Shown: positions 1,888-59,528 of the stretch, in pieces
How the letters are laid out: every line of letters starts with the position of its first letter
Position numbering within the stretch: position 1 is the stretch's first letter
Assembly: GCF_008704795.1 (NCBI RefSeq)
Contig: NZ_CP023690.1
Coordinates: 2,800,501 to 2,864,500 of the forward strand
Direction of reading: 5' to 3'
Length of the DNA stretch: 64,000 bases
Source of the DNA: Streptomyces spectabilis
GTDB lineage: Bacteria > Actinomycetota > Actinomycetes > Streptomycetales > Streptomycetaceae
Notes under the pieces: model-generated
What the model was told of the DNA's origin: nothing
The model's database searches: none
What the model saw: the letters and a program-made list of their open reading frames with translations, nothing else
Made by a program: the position numbers and the translations under genes

Positions 1888-1910
1888 AGTCTAGTCCGGG
1901 TCACTGACAG
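1888..1910 (-). promoter_or_regulatory. RecA-NDp-like promoter of dnaE
   Basis: Read on the minus strand: CTGTCAGTG, eight bases, then TAGACT. The actinobacterial DNA-damage promoter RecA-NDp (bound by PafBC) has the form TTGTCAGTG-N8-TANNNT, so this differs at one base of the upstream block. The implied leader to the dnaE GTG is about 57 nt. Confidence 0.6.
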
Positions 1911-2003
1911 CCGAGCGGCACTCAGGAGTACGGTCGGGCGTTGGAAGAGGGCAGGGGCACGGAACGCCCGCCCCGAATGACATGCACCAGGAGGCACCCC
2001 GCG

Positions 2004-3332
2004 ATGTCGGTCCCGCAGCCCACCGCCGATCAGCGCGGCGAGGAGATCCTCGCCGTCTTCGGCACCGCTTTCGGCGAGCTGCTCGCCGCCGACCCCGCGG
2101 CGTTCCGGGTGAAGTTCCGGAAGATGGCGGCCTCCGCCTTCGCGTTCTACCGGGGCACGGCCGCCCTCTTCTACCACGACCTGGAGCGCGGGCAGCACAC
2201 CGGTGCGTACGTGGACGACCGCACGGGCCGGGTGTGGATCCACGGCGACCTGCACGCGGAGAACTTCGGCACGTACATGGACGCCCAGGGCCGCCTGATC
2301 TTCAACGTGAACGACTTCGACGAGGCGTACGTGGGCCCCTTCACCTGGGACCTCAAGCGCTTCGCCGCCTCGCTCGCCCTGATCGGCTACACGAAGGCGC
2401 TGAGCGACGAGCAGATCACCGGCCTGGTGCGCACGTACGCGGCGGCGTACCGCGCCCGCGTCCACGACCTGGCCACGGGCGCCAAGAGCGAGGAGGTGCC
2501 GCCGTTCACCCTGGACACCGCCCAGGGCCCGCTGCTCGGCGCGCTGCGCGCCGCCCGCTCGCTGACCCGCTTCGAGCTCCTGGACTCGATGACGGAGATC
2601 CGTGACTTCGAGCGCCGCTTCGCGCCGGGGGGCGGCTCCATCGAGCTGGACGCCGCCACGCGCTACAAGGTCCTCGCGGCCTTCGACGGCTATCTGGAGA
2701 CGCTCCCGGAGTCCTCCCTGACCCGCCCGGACTCCTACCGCGTCAAGGACGTCGTGGGCCGCCGCGGCATCGGCATCGGCTCGGCCGGACTGCCCTCGTA
2801 CAACATCCTCCTGGAGGGCAACAGCGACGCGTTGGAGAACGACGTCGTGATCTATCTCAAGCAGGCGCAGACCCCGGCCGTCTCGCGGCACGTCACGGAC
2901 GCCTCGATCCGCGAGTACTTCCAGCACGAGGGCCACCGCACGGTCATCTCGCAGCGCGCCCTGCAGGCGCACGCCGACCCCTGGCTCGGCTGGACCGAGC
3001 TGGACGGCGCGGGCCAGCTCGTCGCCGAGGTCTCGCCGTACGCCGTGGACCTGGACTGGTCGGACATCGACGACCCGGAGGAGATCGCCGCGGTGGTCGC
3101 CGACCTGGGCCGGGCCACCGCCACGATGCACGCGGCGGCGGACGACGAGAGCGGCCACTCGGACCTGGTGCCGTTCTCCACGGAGCGGGCCATCGACGCC
3201 GCGATCGCGGCCGACGAGGCGGGCTTCGCGGACCTCCTCGTGGACTTCGCCCACGCGTACGGCGCCCGCGCGCGCCGCGACCACCAGATCTTCGTCGACC
3301 TGTTCCGCAACGGCCGGATACCGGGGCTGTAG
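2004..3332 (+). CDS. DUF2252 family protein
   Basis: Conserved protein of 442 residues, function unknown. The sequence HGDLHAENFGTYMD (around residue 85) followed by FNVNDFDEAYVGPFTWDL resembles the catalytic HxDxxxxN and following Asp of aminoglycoside phosphotransferase/choline-kinase folds, and DUF2252 proteins are usually placed near that fold. No signal peptide or membrane segment is seen, so it is cytosolic. The ATG at 2004 was chosen over upstream in-frame starts because of AGGAGG about eight bases before it. It is monocistronic, divergent from dnaE, and followed by a hairpin at 3341-3366. Substrate is not predictable from sequence. Confidence 0.88.
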   Translation: MSVPQPTADQRGEEILAVFGTAFGELLAADPAAFRVKFRKMAASAFAFYRGTAALFYHDLERGQHTGAYVDDRTGRVWIHGDLHAENFGTYMDAQGRLIFNVNDFDEAYVGPFTWDLKRFAASLALIGYTKALSDEQITGLVRTYAAAYRARVHDLATGAKSEEVPPFTLDTAQGPLLGALRAARSLTRFELLDSMTEIRDFERRFAPGGGSIELDAATRYKVLAAFDGYLETLPESSLTRPDSYRVKDVVGRRGIGIGSAGLPSYNILLEGNSDALENDVVIYLKQAQTPAVSRHVTDASIREYFQHEGHRTVISQRALQAHADPWLGWTELDGAGQLVAEVSPYAVDLDWSDIDDPEEIAAVVADLGRATATMHAAADDESGHSDLVPFSTERAIDAAIAADEAGFADLLVDFAHAYGARARRDHQIFVDLFRNGRIPGL

Positions 3333-3340
3333 GGAGTCGG

Positions 3341-3366
3341 CCGCGGGGGCCCGGCGCGCCCCGCGG
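3341..3366 (+). terminator. Candidate terminator after DUF2252 gene
   Basis: Inverted repeat CCGCGGGG / CCCCGCGG with a 10-nt loop, starting 8 nt after the stop codon. No U-tract, as is usual in Streptomyces. Confidence 0.45.
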
Positions 3367-3467
3367 GAGCCCTCGTGACGCACCCCCGTGATCCCGAGTG
3401 ACCCATGTGATTCACAGGGACCCTTTAGGGATGCCTTACGACGGCTCATGGCACACTCGCTTGCGCG

Positions 3468-4157
3468 ATGGACATATTCGGGACCCAGATGAGAGTGGTG
3501 CGCGCGGCACTGTTCACGGCACTCGTCGTGCTGCTGTCCGCCGCGTCGCACATTCTGCTGTCCCGGGCCCCGCTGCCGCTGACCACCTGTCTGGCGATCA
3601 CGGCCGCCGTCTACGTCATCGCGTACGCCCTGGCGGGGCGCGAGCGCGGCTTCGGCAAGATCGCCGCGCTGCTCGTCCCGCTGGAGCTCGCCGCCGACAC
3701 CGTCTTCACCACCGGCCAGCACGTCTGCTACGGCCAGGCGGGCGGCCCGGTCGCGGGCCCGCTGCGCTCCTTCGGCGTCGACGTGCTGTGCGGCGGCGGC
3801 GACGTGGGCTCCCCGCTGGCCCGGATGGCGGGCGGCGAGCGGATGCACGGCGCCGCCGCCCTGCTCGCCGACGCCGACCCGGCCGCGGCCTGGCTGCTGC
3901 TCGCCACGCACATCGGCGTCGGCCTCGCCGCCGCGGCCTGGCTGCACCGGGGCGAGCGCGCCATCGCCCAGCTGCTGCGCGCCGTGGCCGCGGCCACCTT
4001 CCGGCCGCTCCTGATCGCCCTGGCCGTGGTGACCGGCCGGTCCGTTCCGGAGCACCGCGCGCCGCGGCCCGTGCTCCGGGCCCGGGCGGCGCGCACCCGG
4101 CTCTTCGTGCACTGCGTGGGACGGCGTGGACCGCCGTACTCGGCCGCCGTCGCCTGA
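3468..4157 (+). CDS. Putative integral membrane protein
   Basis: Uncharacterised protein of 229 residues. Hydrophobic segments are visible at about 8-30, 38-56, 64-80, 140-160 and 166-190, so four to five membrane helices are likely; the C-terminus is Arg-rich and probably cytosolic. No catalytic motif is recognised. The start is uncertain: ATG 3468 and ATG 3489 are both possible and neither has a clear Shine-Dalgarno. It lies 44 bp upstream of the DsbA-like gene on the same strand and may be cotranscribed, which hints at an envelope role, but nothing in the sequence shows function. Confidence 0.7.
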   Translation: MDIFGTQMRVVRAALFTALVVLLSAASHILLSRAPLPLTTCLAITAAVYVIAYALAGRERGFGKIAALLVPLELAADTVFTTGQHVCYGQAGGPVAGPLRSFGVDVLCGGGDVGSPLARMAGGERMHGAAALLADADPAAAWLLLATHIGVGLAAAAWLHRGERAIAQLLRAVAAATFRPLLIALAVVTGRSVPEHRAPRPVLRARAARTRLFVHCVGRRGPPYSAAVA

Positions 4158-4201
4158 GTACGTACGCCCACACCCGTCCCACACACCCACGGAGCACCAC
4201 C

Positions 4202-58426: not shown

Positions 58427-58644
58427 CCACGCCCCCCGCCGTCTCCGCCATTTCGGTCAATGGCGAGGCCCACGACGTCGCCGCGGGCACCACGCTCGAC
58501 GTCGTCGTCGCCGAGCTGACCGCCGCCCCGTCCGGCGTCGCCGCGGCCCTCAACGAGACCGTCGTCCCGCGCGCGCAGTGGGCCACCACCGCGCTCCGGG
58601 ACGGCGACCGCGTCGAAGTCCTCACCGCCGTCCAAGGAGGCTGA
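58423..58644 (+). CDS. thiS: Sulfur carrier protein ThiS
   Basis: Ubiquitin-fold protein of 73 residues ending in the required Gly-Gly (VLTAVQGG), the site of adenylation and thiocarboxylation. VNGEAHDVAAGTTLDVV and ALNETVVPRAQW are family-typical. ATG 58423 overlaps the thiO stop, so it is translationally coupled; the ThiG Shine-Dalgarno AAGGAGG lies in its last codons. Confidence 0.95.
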   Translation: MTTPPAVSAISVNGEAHDVAAGTTLDVVVAELTAAPSGVAAALNETVVPRAQWATTALRDGDRVEVLTAVQGG

Positions 58645-58648
58645 CGAC

Positions 58649-59443
58649 ATGGCGGACGACTCCCTCGTCATCGGCGGCCTCACGCTGTCGTCCCGGCTGA
58701 TCATGGGCACGGGCGGAGCGCCGAGCCTCGACGTCCTCGAACGGTCCCTGGTGGCCTCGGGGACGGAGCTGACCACCGTCGCGATGCGGCGCGTCGACCC
58801 GGGTACGCACGGCTCCGTCCTGTCCGTCCTGGAGCGCCTCGGCATCCGCGTCCTGCCCAACACGGCGGGCTGCTTCACCGCGGGCGAGGCCGTGCTCACC
58901 GCCCGTCTCGCGCGCGAGGCGCTCGGCACCGACCTGGTGAAACTGGAAGTGATCGCCGACGAGCGCACGCTCCTGCCCGACCCCGTGGAGCTGCTCGACG
59001 CCGCGGAGACCCTCGTCGACGACGGCTTCACCGTCCTTCCCTACACGAACGACGACCCCGTCCTTGCCCGGAAGCTGGAGGACGCCGGCTGCGCGGCCGT
59101 CATGCCGCTCGGCTCCCCCATCGGCTCCGGGCTCGGCATCCGCAACCCGCACAACTTCCAGCTCATCGTGGAGCACGCGCGCGTGCCGGTGATCCTGGAC
59201 GCGGGCGCCGGTACGGCGTCCGACGTGGCGCTCGCGATGGAGCTGGGGTGCGCCGGGGTGATGCTGGCCTCCGCGGTCACCCGGGCACGGGAGCCGGTCC
59301 TCATGGCGGAGGCCATGAGCCACGCGGTCGTCGCCGGTCACCTGGCCCGGCGGGCCGGGCGGATCCCCCGGCGGCACTTCGCCGAGGCGTCGTCCCCCGC
59401 GACGGGCCTCGCGGCCCTTGACCCGGAGCGGCCCGCCTTCTGA
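58649..59443 (+). CDS. thiG: Thiazole synthase ThiG
   Basis: TIM-barrel enzyme of 264 residues that forms the thiazole phosphate of thiamine from DXP, iminoglycine and ThiS thiocarboxylate. Schiff-base Lys in TDLVKLEVIAD (about residue 98); also RLIMGTGGAPSLDVLE, RRVDPGTHG, MPLGSPIGSGLGIRNP and DAGAGTASDVALAMELG. ATG 58649 has AAGGAGG eight bases upstream, four bases after thiS. A hairpin at 59478-59498 ends the operon. Confidence 0.97.
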   Translation: MADDSLVIGGLTLSSRLIMGTGGAPSLDVLERSLVASGTELTTVAMRRVDPGTHGSVLSVLERLGIRVLPNTAGCFTAGEAVLTARLAREALGTDLVKLEVIADERTLLPDPVELLDAAETLVDDGFTVLPYTNDDPVLARKLEDAGCAAVMPLGSPIGSGLGIRNPHNFQLIVEHARVPVILDAGAGTASDVALAMELGCAGVMLASAVTRAREPVLMAEAMSHAVVAGHLARRAGRIPRRHFAEASSPATGLAALDPERPAF

Positions 59444-59477
59444 GGCCGTGGGCTCGGTCACAGCTCCGCTGCAGTCT

Positions 59478-59498
59478 GCCCCGGGCGGGGCCCGGGGC
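59478..59498 (+). terminator. Terminator after thiG
   Basis: GCCCCGGGC / GCCCGGGGC with a 3-nt loop, 35 bases after the stop and just upstream of the kinase promoter. Confidence 0.65.
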
Positions 59499-59505
59499 GG
59501 CCTCG

Positions 59506-59528
59506 GCGTCAGTGGCGGCTCGTAGACT
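59506..59528 (+). promoter_or_regulatory. RecA-NDp-like promoter of PASTA kinase gene
   Basis: GCGTCAGTG (59506-59514), eight bases, TAGACT (59523-59528), six bases before the GTG start. The first two bases of the upstream block differ from TTGTCAGTG; spacing and -10 match. Confidence 0.5.

Follow-up and report, generated by a model that had tools for sequence, protein, structure and literature searches.

Candidate RecA-NDp/PafBC-type promoters at four Streptomyces spectabilis loci belong to a conserved, genome-wide promoter set

A 64-kb stretch of the Streptomyces spectabilis genome (hereafter, the window; positions 2,800,501-2,864,500 of a 9.81-Mb single-contig genome, NZ_CP023690.1) was analysed following a first-pass annotation that had read four promoters of the RecA-NDp type, the type served in mycobacteria by the DNA-damage-responsive activator PafBC, from its sequence. 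A pattern search returned all four sites at the positions, on the strands and with the mismatch counts originally reported. On the minus strand, CTGTCAGTG-N8-TAGACT (1888..1910; one mismatch) precedes dnaE, the gene for a replicative-type DNA polymerase III alpha subunit, the 5′ part of which occupies positions 3..1823 before running off the window, and TTGTCAGTG-N8-CACGAT (46073..46095; variant -10 element) precedes a gene encoding a 176-amino acid protein of the HEPN_SAV_6107 family (45494..46024; Pfam PF18726, 3.3e-37). On the plus strand, TTGTCAGTG-N8-TAAAGT (50849..50871; exact) lies ahead of the gene for a flavin adenine dinucleotide (FAD)-dependent amine-oxidase/CrtI-like enzyme of 508 amino acids (50879..52405; Pfam Amino_oxidase, 1.4e-20; NCBIfam crtI_fam, 173.7 bits, below cut-off), and a weaker site, GCGTCAGTG-N8-TAGACT (59506..59528; two mismatches), lies ahead of the gene for a 670-amino acid Stk1-family PASTA Ser/Thr kinase (59535..61547; NCBIfam PknB_PASTA_kin, 652 bits, above cut-off). 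Each site faces a correctly oriented start codon, namely GTG 1823 (dnaE), ATG 46024 (HEPN gene, after an AGGAGG-like ribosome site), ATG 50879 (FAD gene) and GTG 59535 (kinase gene). A fifth match with two mismatches (61389-61411, minus strand) lies antisense within the kinase gene. The sequence, spacing and position of the four sites support their assignment as RecA-NDp-type promoters, and the analyses below show them to be real, evolutionarily conserved members of a genome-wide promoter set of known type. The HEPN promoter is the strongest, best conserved and most interesting of the four; the kinase site is the weakest.

Shuffling the window 100 times yielded a mean of 0.43 pattern matches per shuffle, and none of the shuffles reached five. 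The core TGTCRGTG-N8-[CGT]ANNNT is perfect at the dnaE, HEPN and FAD sites, making three occurrences in the window against a first-order Markov expectation of 0.075. The kinase site matches seven of the eight core positions, as do six other places in the window; with 10 places scoring at least 7/8 against 1.65 expected, the Markov null sets too low an expectation for coding DNA, and window statistics alone do not single out the kinase site. The first-pass annotation had also presented the occurrence of four sites in one 64-kb stretch as noteworthy. Several sites per 64 kb are in fact common in this genome: 2.9% of all 64-kb windows hold at least three of the 66 genome sites described next, and in 98.8% of trials one or more such windows arose when these sites were placed at random. 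The grouping is thus unremarkable, and the notion of a special cluster was rejected.

A genome-wide background scan, proposed at the outset as a check, returned 23 exact matches to TTGTCAGTG-N8-TANNNT and 66 with at most one mismatch, against a single match to the reversed pattern; the shorter TGTCRGTG-N8-TANNNT was found 44 times, against 0 for its control. When the spacer was allowed to vary between 3 and 15, its length was exactly 8 in 23 of 24 matches. ATG and GTG codons peaked 6 and 7 nucleotides (nt) past the -10 element (9 and 19, respectively, of the 63 genome sites with A at -11 used for this count, three being omitted; background, 0.036 per offset and site). At 31 of the 66 sites, a start codon was placed 5-10 nt downstream of the element, the arrangement that leaderless transcripts should show, by a gene-picking script that itself favours starts at 5-10 nt; the gene tallies given below rest on the genes so picked, without a formal background rate. 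In Streptomyces lividans, the -10 element and the transcription start are on average 6.3 nt apart and leaderless transcripts make up 17% of the total, according to excerpts of PMC8079986 (all papers cited herein are represented by excerpts). The FAD and kinase promoters are probably leaderless, judging from start codons 7 nt and 6 nt past their -10 elements, and for the HEPN and dnaE transcripts leaders of about 40 and 55-60 nt, respectively, are predicted. If +1 is set at the leaderless start codon, with starts placed from such codons and the usual -10 distance, the upstream block spans about -29 to -21, the same position at which PafBC of Mycobacterium smegmatis reads its -26 motif (PMC11804915).

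Repair or replication domains were found behind 13 of the 23 exact sites. The genes concerned encode uracil-DNA glycosylase (UDG), MgsA/RarA, RuvA (at L006, where the picked frame carries a false extension ahead of RuvA), PD-(D/E)XK, HHH_RecD2, UvrA, UvrB, MGMT, DnaX, RecA, a DEAD helicase, a RadA-like ATPase (named by reading) and ribosomal protein S6, the last being followed by an ssb-like frame (likewise named by reading). The remaining ten genes include those for a WGR protein, a major facilitator superfamily transporter, a hydrolase, an extracytoplasmic function (ECF)-type sigma factor and unknown proteins, as well as the FAD gene. Two UvrD-like helicases and RecD2 are among the products encoded behind sites whose mismatch lies in the block; at the DnaB site the mismatch falls in the -10 element. 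The genome-wide set is thus rich in repair and replication genes, which supports the RecA-NDp-type assignment. Since metabolic or unknown genes are numerous among the targets, there is nothing exceptional about finding the FAD, kinase and HEPN genes in the set. An NCBIfam search with ten further proteins of the set found no family above its cut-off. Unexpected genes were picked at seven loci (L001, L014, L020, L035, L054, L058 and L060), including those for a WGR-domain protein, alpha/beta hydrolases, an ECF-type sigma factor, a TerD protein and a caspase-like peptidase.

To follow the four promoters across the genus, 30 further Streptomyces genomes were drawn, and the counts that follow include the S. 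spectabilis genome itself. The comparison was made without L112, L144 and L151, which offered no usable upstream DNA, and that of two null regions also without L108 and L176. The HEPN gene was found in 28 of the 31 genomes and its promoter core was perfect in all 28. The core scored at least 7/8 in 23/30 loci at dnaE, 21/28 at the FAD gene and 19/28 at the kinase gene (7 of them perfect), against 0/112 in each of the null regions. The motif was thus found in the orthologous promoters, one of the two points on which the first-pass annotation had staked its proposal. Conservation of the HEPN promoter extended to named Streptomyces loci drawn from the best 80 of 355 relatives, all of them Streptomyces; the closest named HEPN match was that of S. 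longispororuber (97%). Among the 79 further loci with upstream DNA (L205 was omitted), the block was TTGTCAGTG in 79, and the -10 element read CACGAT in 74, CACTAT in 2, GACGAT in 2 and CAGAAT in 1, such that position -12 was C in 77, G in 2 and T in none.

The -10 element of the HEPN promoter, which had been scored as carrying a mismatch, actually is a conserved variant and belongs to a second class of sites, marked by C or G at -12. Across seven Streptomyces genomes, TTGTCAGTG-N8-[C/G]ANNNT occurred at 165 places and the TANNNT form at 141 (reversed controls, 1 and 0), and about half of such sites in the sampled Streptomyces use a variant core that resembles a mismatch without being one. Among the distinct matches listed, A at -8 was present in 67/131 sites of the C/G class versus 5/125 of the T class, TG at -15/-14 in 53/131 versus 1/125, and either feature in 100/131 versus 6/125. 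These counts pool related genomes after merging identical 23-mers and draw on 150 of the 165 C/G-class places (3 of 18 in genome G002) and on all 141 T-class places. The association held when the S. spectabilis genome was excluded (81/108 versus 5/102 for either feature) and in that genome alone (19/23 versus 1/23). Given this covariation, the HEPN 'mismatch' is a compensated form; its interpretation as a defective -10 element was rejected, CACGAT being both conserved and of the compensated class. Repair or replication genes stood behind 6 of the 23 C/G-class sites of S. spectabilis, 21 of which were covered by the domain scan (L040 and L051 fell outside it); they encode a DinB-type polymerase, a delta-prime-like protein, DNA_pol_A, Lhr, topoisomerase IV/gyrase A and an exonuclease. 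Such compensation at -12 may reflect how the housekeeping sigma factor behaves in general. In S. lividans, excerpts of PMC8079986 give T at -12 in 63.8% of leaderless and 42.9% of leadered -10 boxes, and inspection by eye of the upstream sequences of orthologs of nfo, the gene that follows the kinase gene, showed that 14 of the 22 printed carry a TG-extended box of the CACC(C)T type and lack the block. More speculatively, and in our estimation rather improbably, the regulon might use the two forms (TANNNT, and C/G at -12 compensated by A at -8 or TG at -15/-14) as a code setting different basal levels or strictness of PafBC control, and HEPN_SAV_6107, under the second form in every genome examined, might be a core LexA-independent damage-response factor of Streptomyces, perhaps one that acts on RNA or arrests growth rather than a repair enzyme. 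At one locus (L019; genome positions 5,820,380-5,820,474), a site of either -10 class is present, the two being divergent, about 50 bp apart and flanked by a MoxR-like AAA gene and an unnamed gene; genomes G003 and G007 also show the two classes in close opposite pairs.

The designation of the sites as PafBC-type was borne out insofar as both PafB and PafC are encoded in the host genome. The genome has eight WYL matches. For two neighbouring genes the best matches were solved PafC and PafB chains; the pair has a pafA-like gene upstream and tatA/tatC-like genes downstream (named by reading). The host PafB retains the RMFERDK stretch of M. smegmatis PafB, which we take to be part of its DNA-reading helix. 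Across 149 genomes of the phylum, exact sites occurred in 12 of the 13 members of the class to which S. spectabilis belongs (its own genome included), with up to 40 in one Streptomyces, while outside the class 33 sites were spread over 30/136 genomes, versus 15 control matches. PafC homologs (E <= 1e-15) were found in 89/149 genomes, including all 13 class members. By hand count among the matches listed, the sixth base of the block was A in 84/98 Streptomyces sites and G in 49/56 sites of other class members; the S. spectabilis genome contributes A at 23 of 25 places, two Streptomyces genomes are represented by 26 of 40 and 26 of 29 places, and some of the sites in the other class members are identical repeats. 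Three of the phylum genomes (G100, G122 and G172) carry several identical copies of motif plus spacer each, suggestive of repeated or mobile sequences bearing the promoter.

Taken together, the motif, its fixed spacing, enrichment and conservation, the covariation within the -10 element, the start-codon peak and the presence of PafBC genes make it likely, in our view, that the four sites are RecA-NDp/PafBC-type promoters within a conserved Streptomyces regulon of at least several dozen genes, working by the mycobacterial mechanism. From these sequence data we infer PafBC binding and control, induction by damage and the positions of the transcription starts. Under the mechanism as it stands in mycobacteria, damage would generate single-stranded DNA to be bound by the WYL domains of PafBC, and the activated PafBC would join RNA polymerase carrying the housekeeping sigma factor. 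PafB would then read the block at about -29 to -21 and PafC would hold sigma domain 4, which in this proposal is why no -35 box would be needed and why the distance from block to -10 element would be fixed. The -10 element itself comes in two forms, TANNNT and a [C/G]ANNNT form accompanied by A at -8 or by TG at -15/-14; the HEPN promoter is of the second.

Several observations weigh against this interpretation. Of the 136 sampled genomes outside the class, among which the motif is seldom seen, 76 encode PafC-like proteins (E <= 1e-15), and one class member (G162) has PafC and no exact site; the motif characterises the class and is not predicted by the presence of PafC alone. According to excerpts of a study of Streptomyces venezuelae (PMC9380542), an initial examination did not find the mycobacterial motif conserved in that species, a failure that the genus-specific differences in the motif may explain. 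Finally, the block is lost (below 7/8) at dnaE in 7/30 genomes, at the FAD gene in 7/28 and at the kinase gene in 9/28. For the kinase gene, where the block is perfect in only 7/28 genomes while the -10 element and start codon stay, and perhaps for the FAD gene, such losses lend some substance to the idea that the -26 block is a weak or fading remnant ahead of an ordinary leaderless housekeeping promoter. Where the block is kept, however, it stands at the exact spacing, and the null regions never reached 7/8; we therefore view this explanation as possible but doubtful. That another activator reads the block, be it a different WYL protein or a factor of some other kind, and that the block has its role in growth or replication instead of the damage response, seems to us unlikely. 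The replication genes among the targets (dnaE, dnaX, dnaB, the delta-prime-like gene and topoisomerase), the eight WYL matches of the host genome and the precedent of SiwR, a second WYL activator that also uses the -26 region in mycobacteria (excerpts of PMC10693628), would fit it, but the core repair genes recA, uvrA, uvrB and those for UDG and MGMT bear the motif, the block resembles the RecA-NDp motif and the RMFERDK stretch is kept in PafB. Chance matches picked by eye, for which the shortness of the pattern and the inconspicuousness of the kinase site in the window might speak, can be dismissed as next to impossible in the face of the counts relative to controls, the conservation and the position relative to start codons, conservation having already refuted chance for the dnaE, HEPN and FAD sites.

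As a PafBC-type regulon, the Streptomyces set would share with its mycobacterial counterpart a TTGTCRGTG-type block at about -26, dispensability of a -35 box, repair genes among the targets and the encoded PafBC; it differs in the prevalence of A rather than G at the sixth base, in the large class with C or G at -12, and in the HEPN, FAD enzyme and PASTA kinase genes among its predicted targets. Activation of PafBC by single-stranded DNA and sigma adaptation are established in M. smegmatis (excerpts of PMC11804915). In Streptomyces, RecA-NDp promoters were known at recA and at the SCO6735 macrodomain gene (excerpts of PMC5087735 and PMC9411070); the sites described here are of the same type in the same genus, the differences being the other genes, the genome-wide count and the two -10 forms. 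The LexA/SOS regulon of S. venezuelae, insofar as excerpts of PMC9380542 describe it, shares recA, ruvC-ruvA, dinP and perhaps uvrA with this set but differs in its SOS box of the TCGAAC type and in operating by repressor release; the same excerpts called the LexA-independent damage response of Streptomyces open in 2022. A literature search by title and start of abstract, with subscription papers largely outside its reach, found no mapping of this regulon in Streptomyces and no mention of two -10 forms, and a search linking SCO2064, SCO2110 or SCO2098 to damage terms found none. The present counts yield a definite set of promoters together with a motif adapted to Streptomyces (A, not G, at the sixth base; C or G allowed at -12), and nominate the HEPN protein, the flavoenzyme and the wall-sensing kinase as candidate damage-response genes, the function of the four promoters under damage being a prediction from sequence.

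dnaE had been called an expected target. Its promoter is kept at 23/30 loci of the genus, and the gene is of the replicative type rather than dnaE2: the partial protein scored 788 bits against NCBIfam PRK05673 (replicative) versus 325 against PRK05672 (error-prone), both below the whole-protein cut-offs. A more distant second dnaE copy (54%) lies elsewhere in the host genome. In S. venezuelae, dnaE2 is a LexA target (excerpts of PMC9380542).

The other three targets had been described as not being repair genes, a description that leaves out that the kinase gene is followed by an endonuclease IV (nfo)-like gene (named by reading; 61663..62526, plus strand; Pfam AP_endonuc_2, 6.2e-50). This gene lies downstream of the kinase gene in 29/30 loci of the genus, the remaining locus ending 42 nt past the match. 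Its start is close to the kinase stop codon in several species (e.g., L137 and L139-L142), and in others it has its own box; in some species, transcription from the kinase promoter may thus extend to a repair gene. The view that nfo fully accounts for the kinase promoter was rejected on account of the block-free box of its own found in 14 of the 22 printed loci. A scan of positions 59400-62700 for sigma-70 promoters and terminators found nothing.

Residues 65-70 of the window protein (45497-46024, minus strand) form an R-x4-H string (R65-H70), which lies early in the domain and is kept in 105 of 107 HEPN orthologs from 108 loci. The HEPN catalytic motif is RX4-6H, and the R65-H70 string is presumably not at its position. 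In excerpts of a HEPN survey (PMC3710099), the SAV_6107 family is entered as 'No' in what we take to be the motif column. Lastly, a TGACTGGTCA-like palindrome lies at 46142-46170 of the window, between the HEPN gene and a divergent ATP-binding cassette transporter-like gene, and resembles, by reading, a TetR-type operator.

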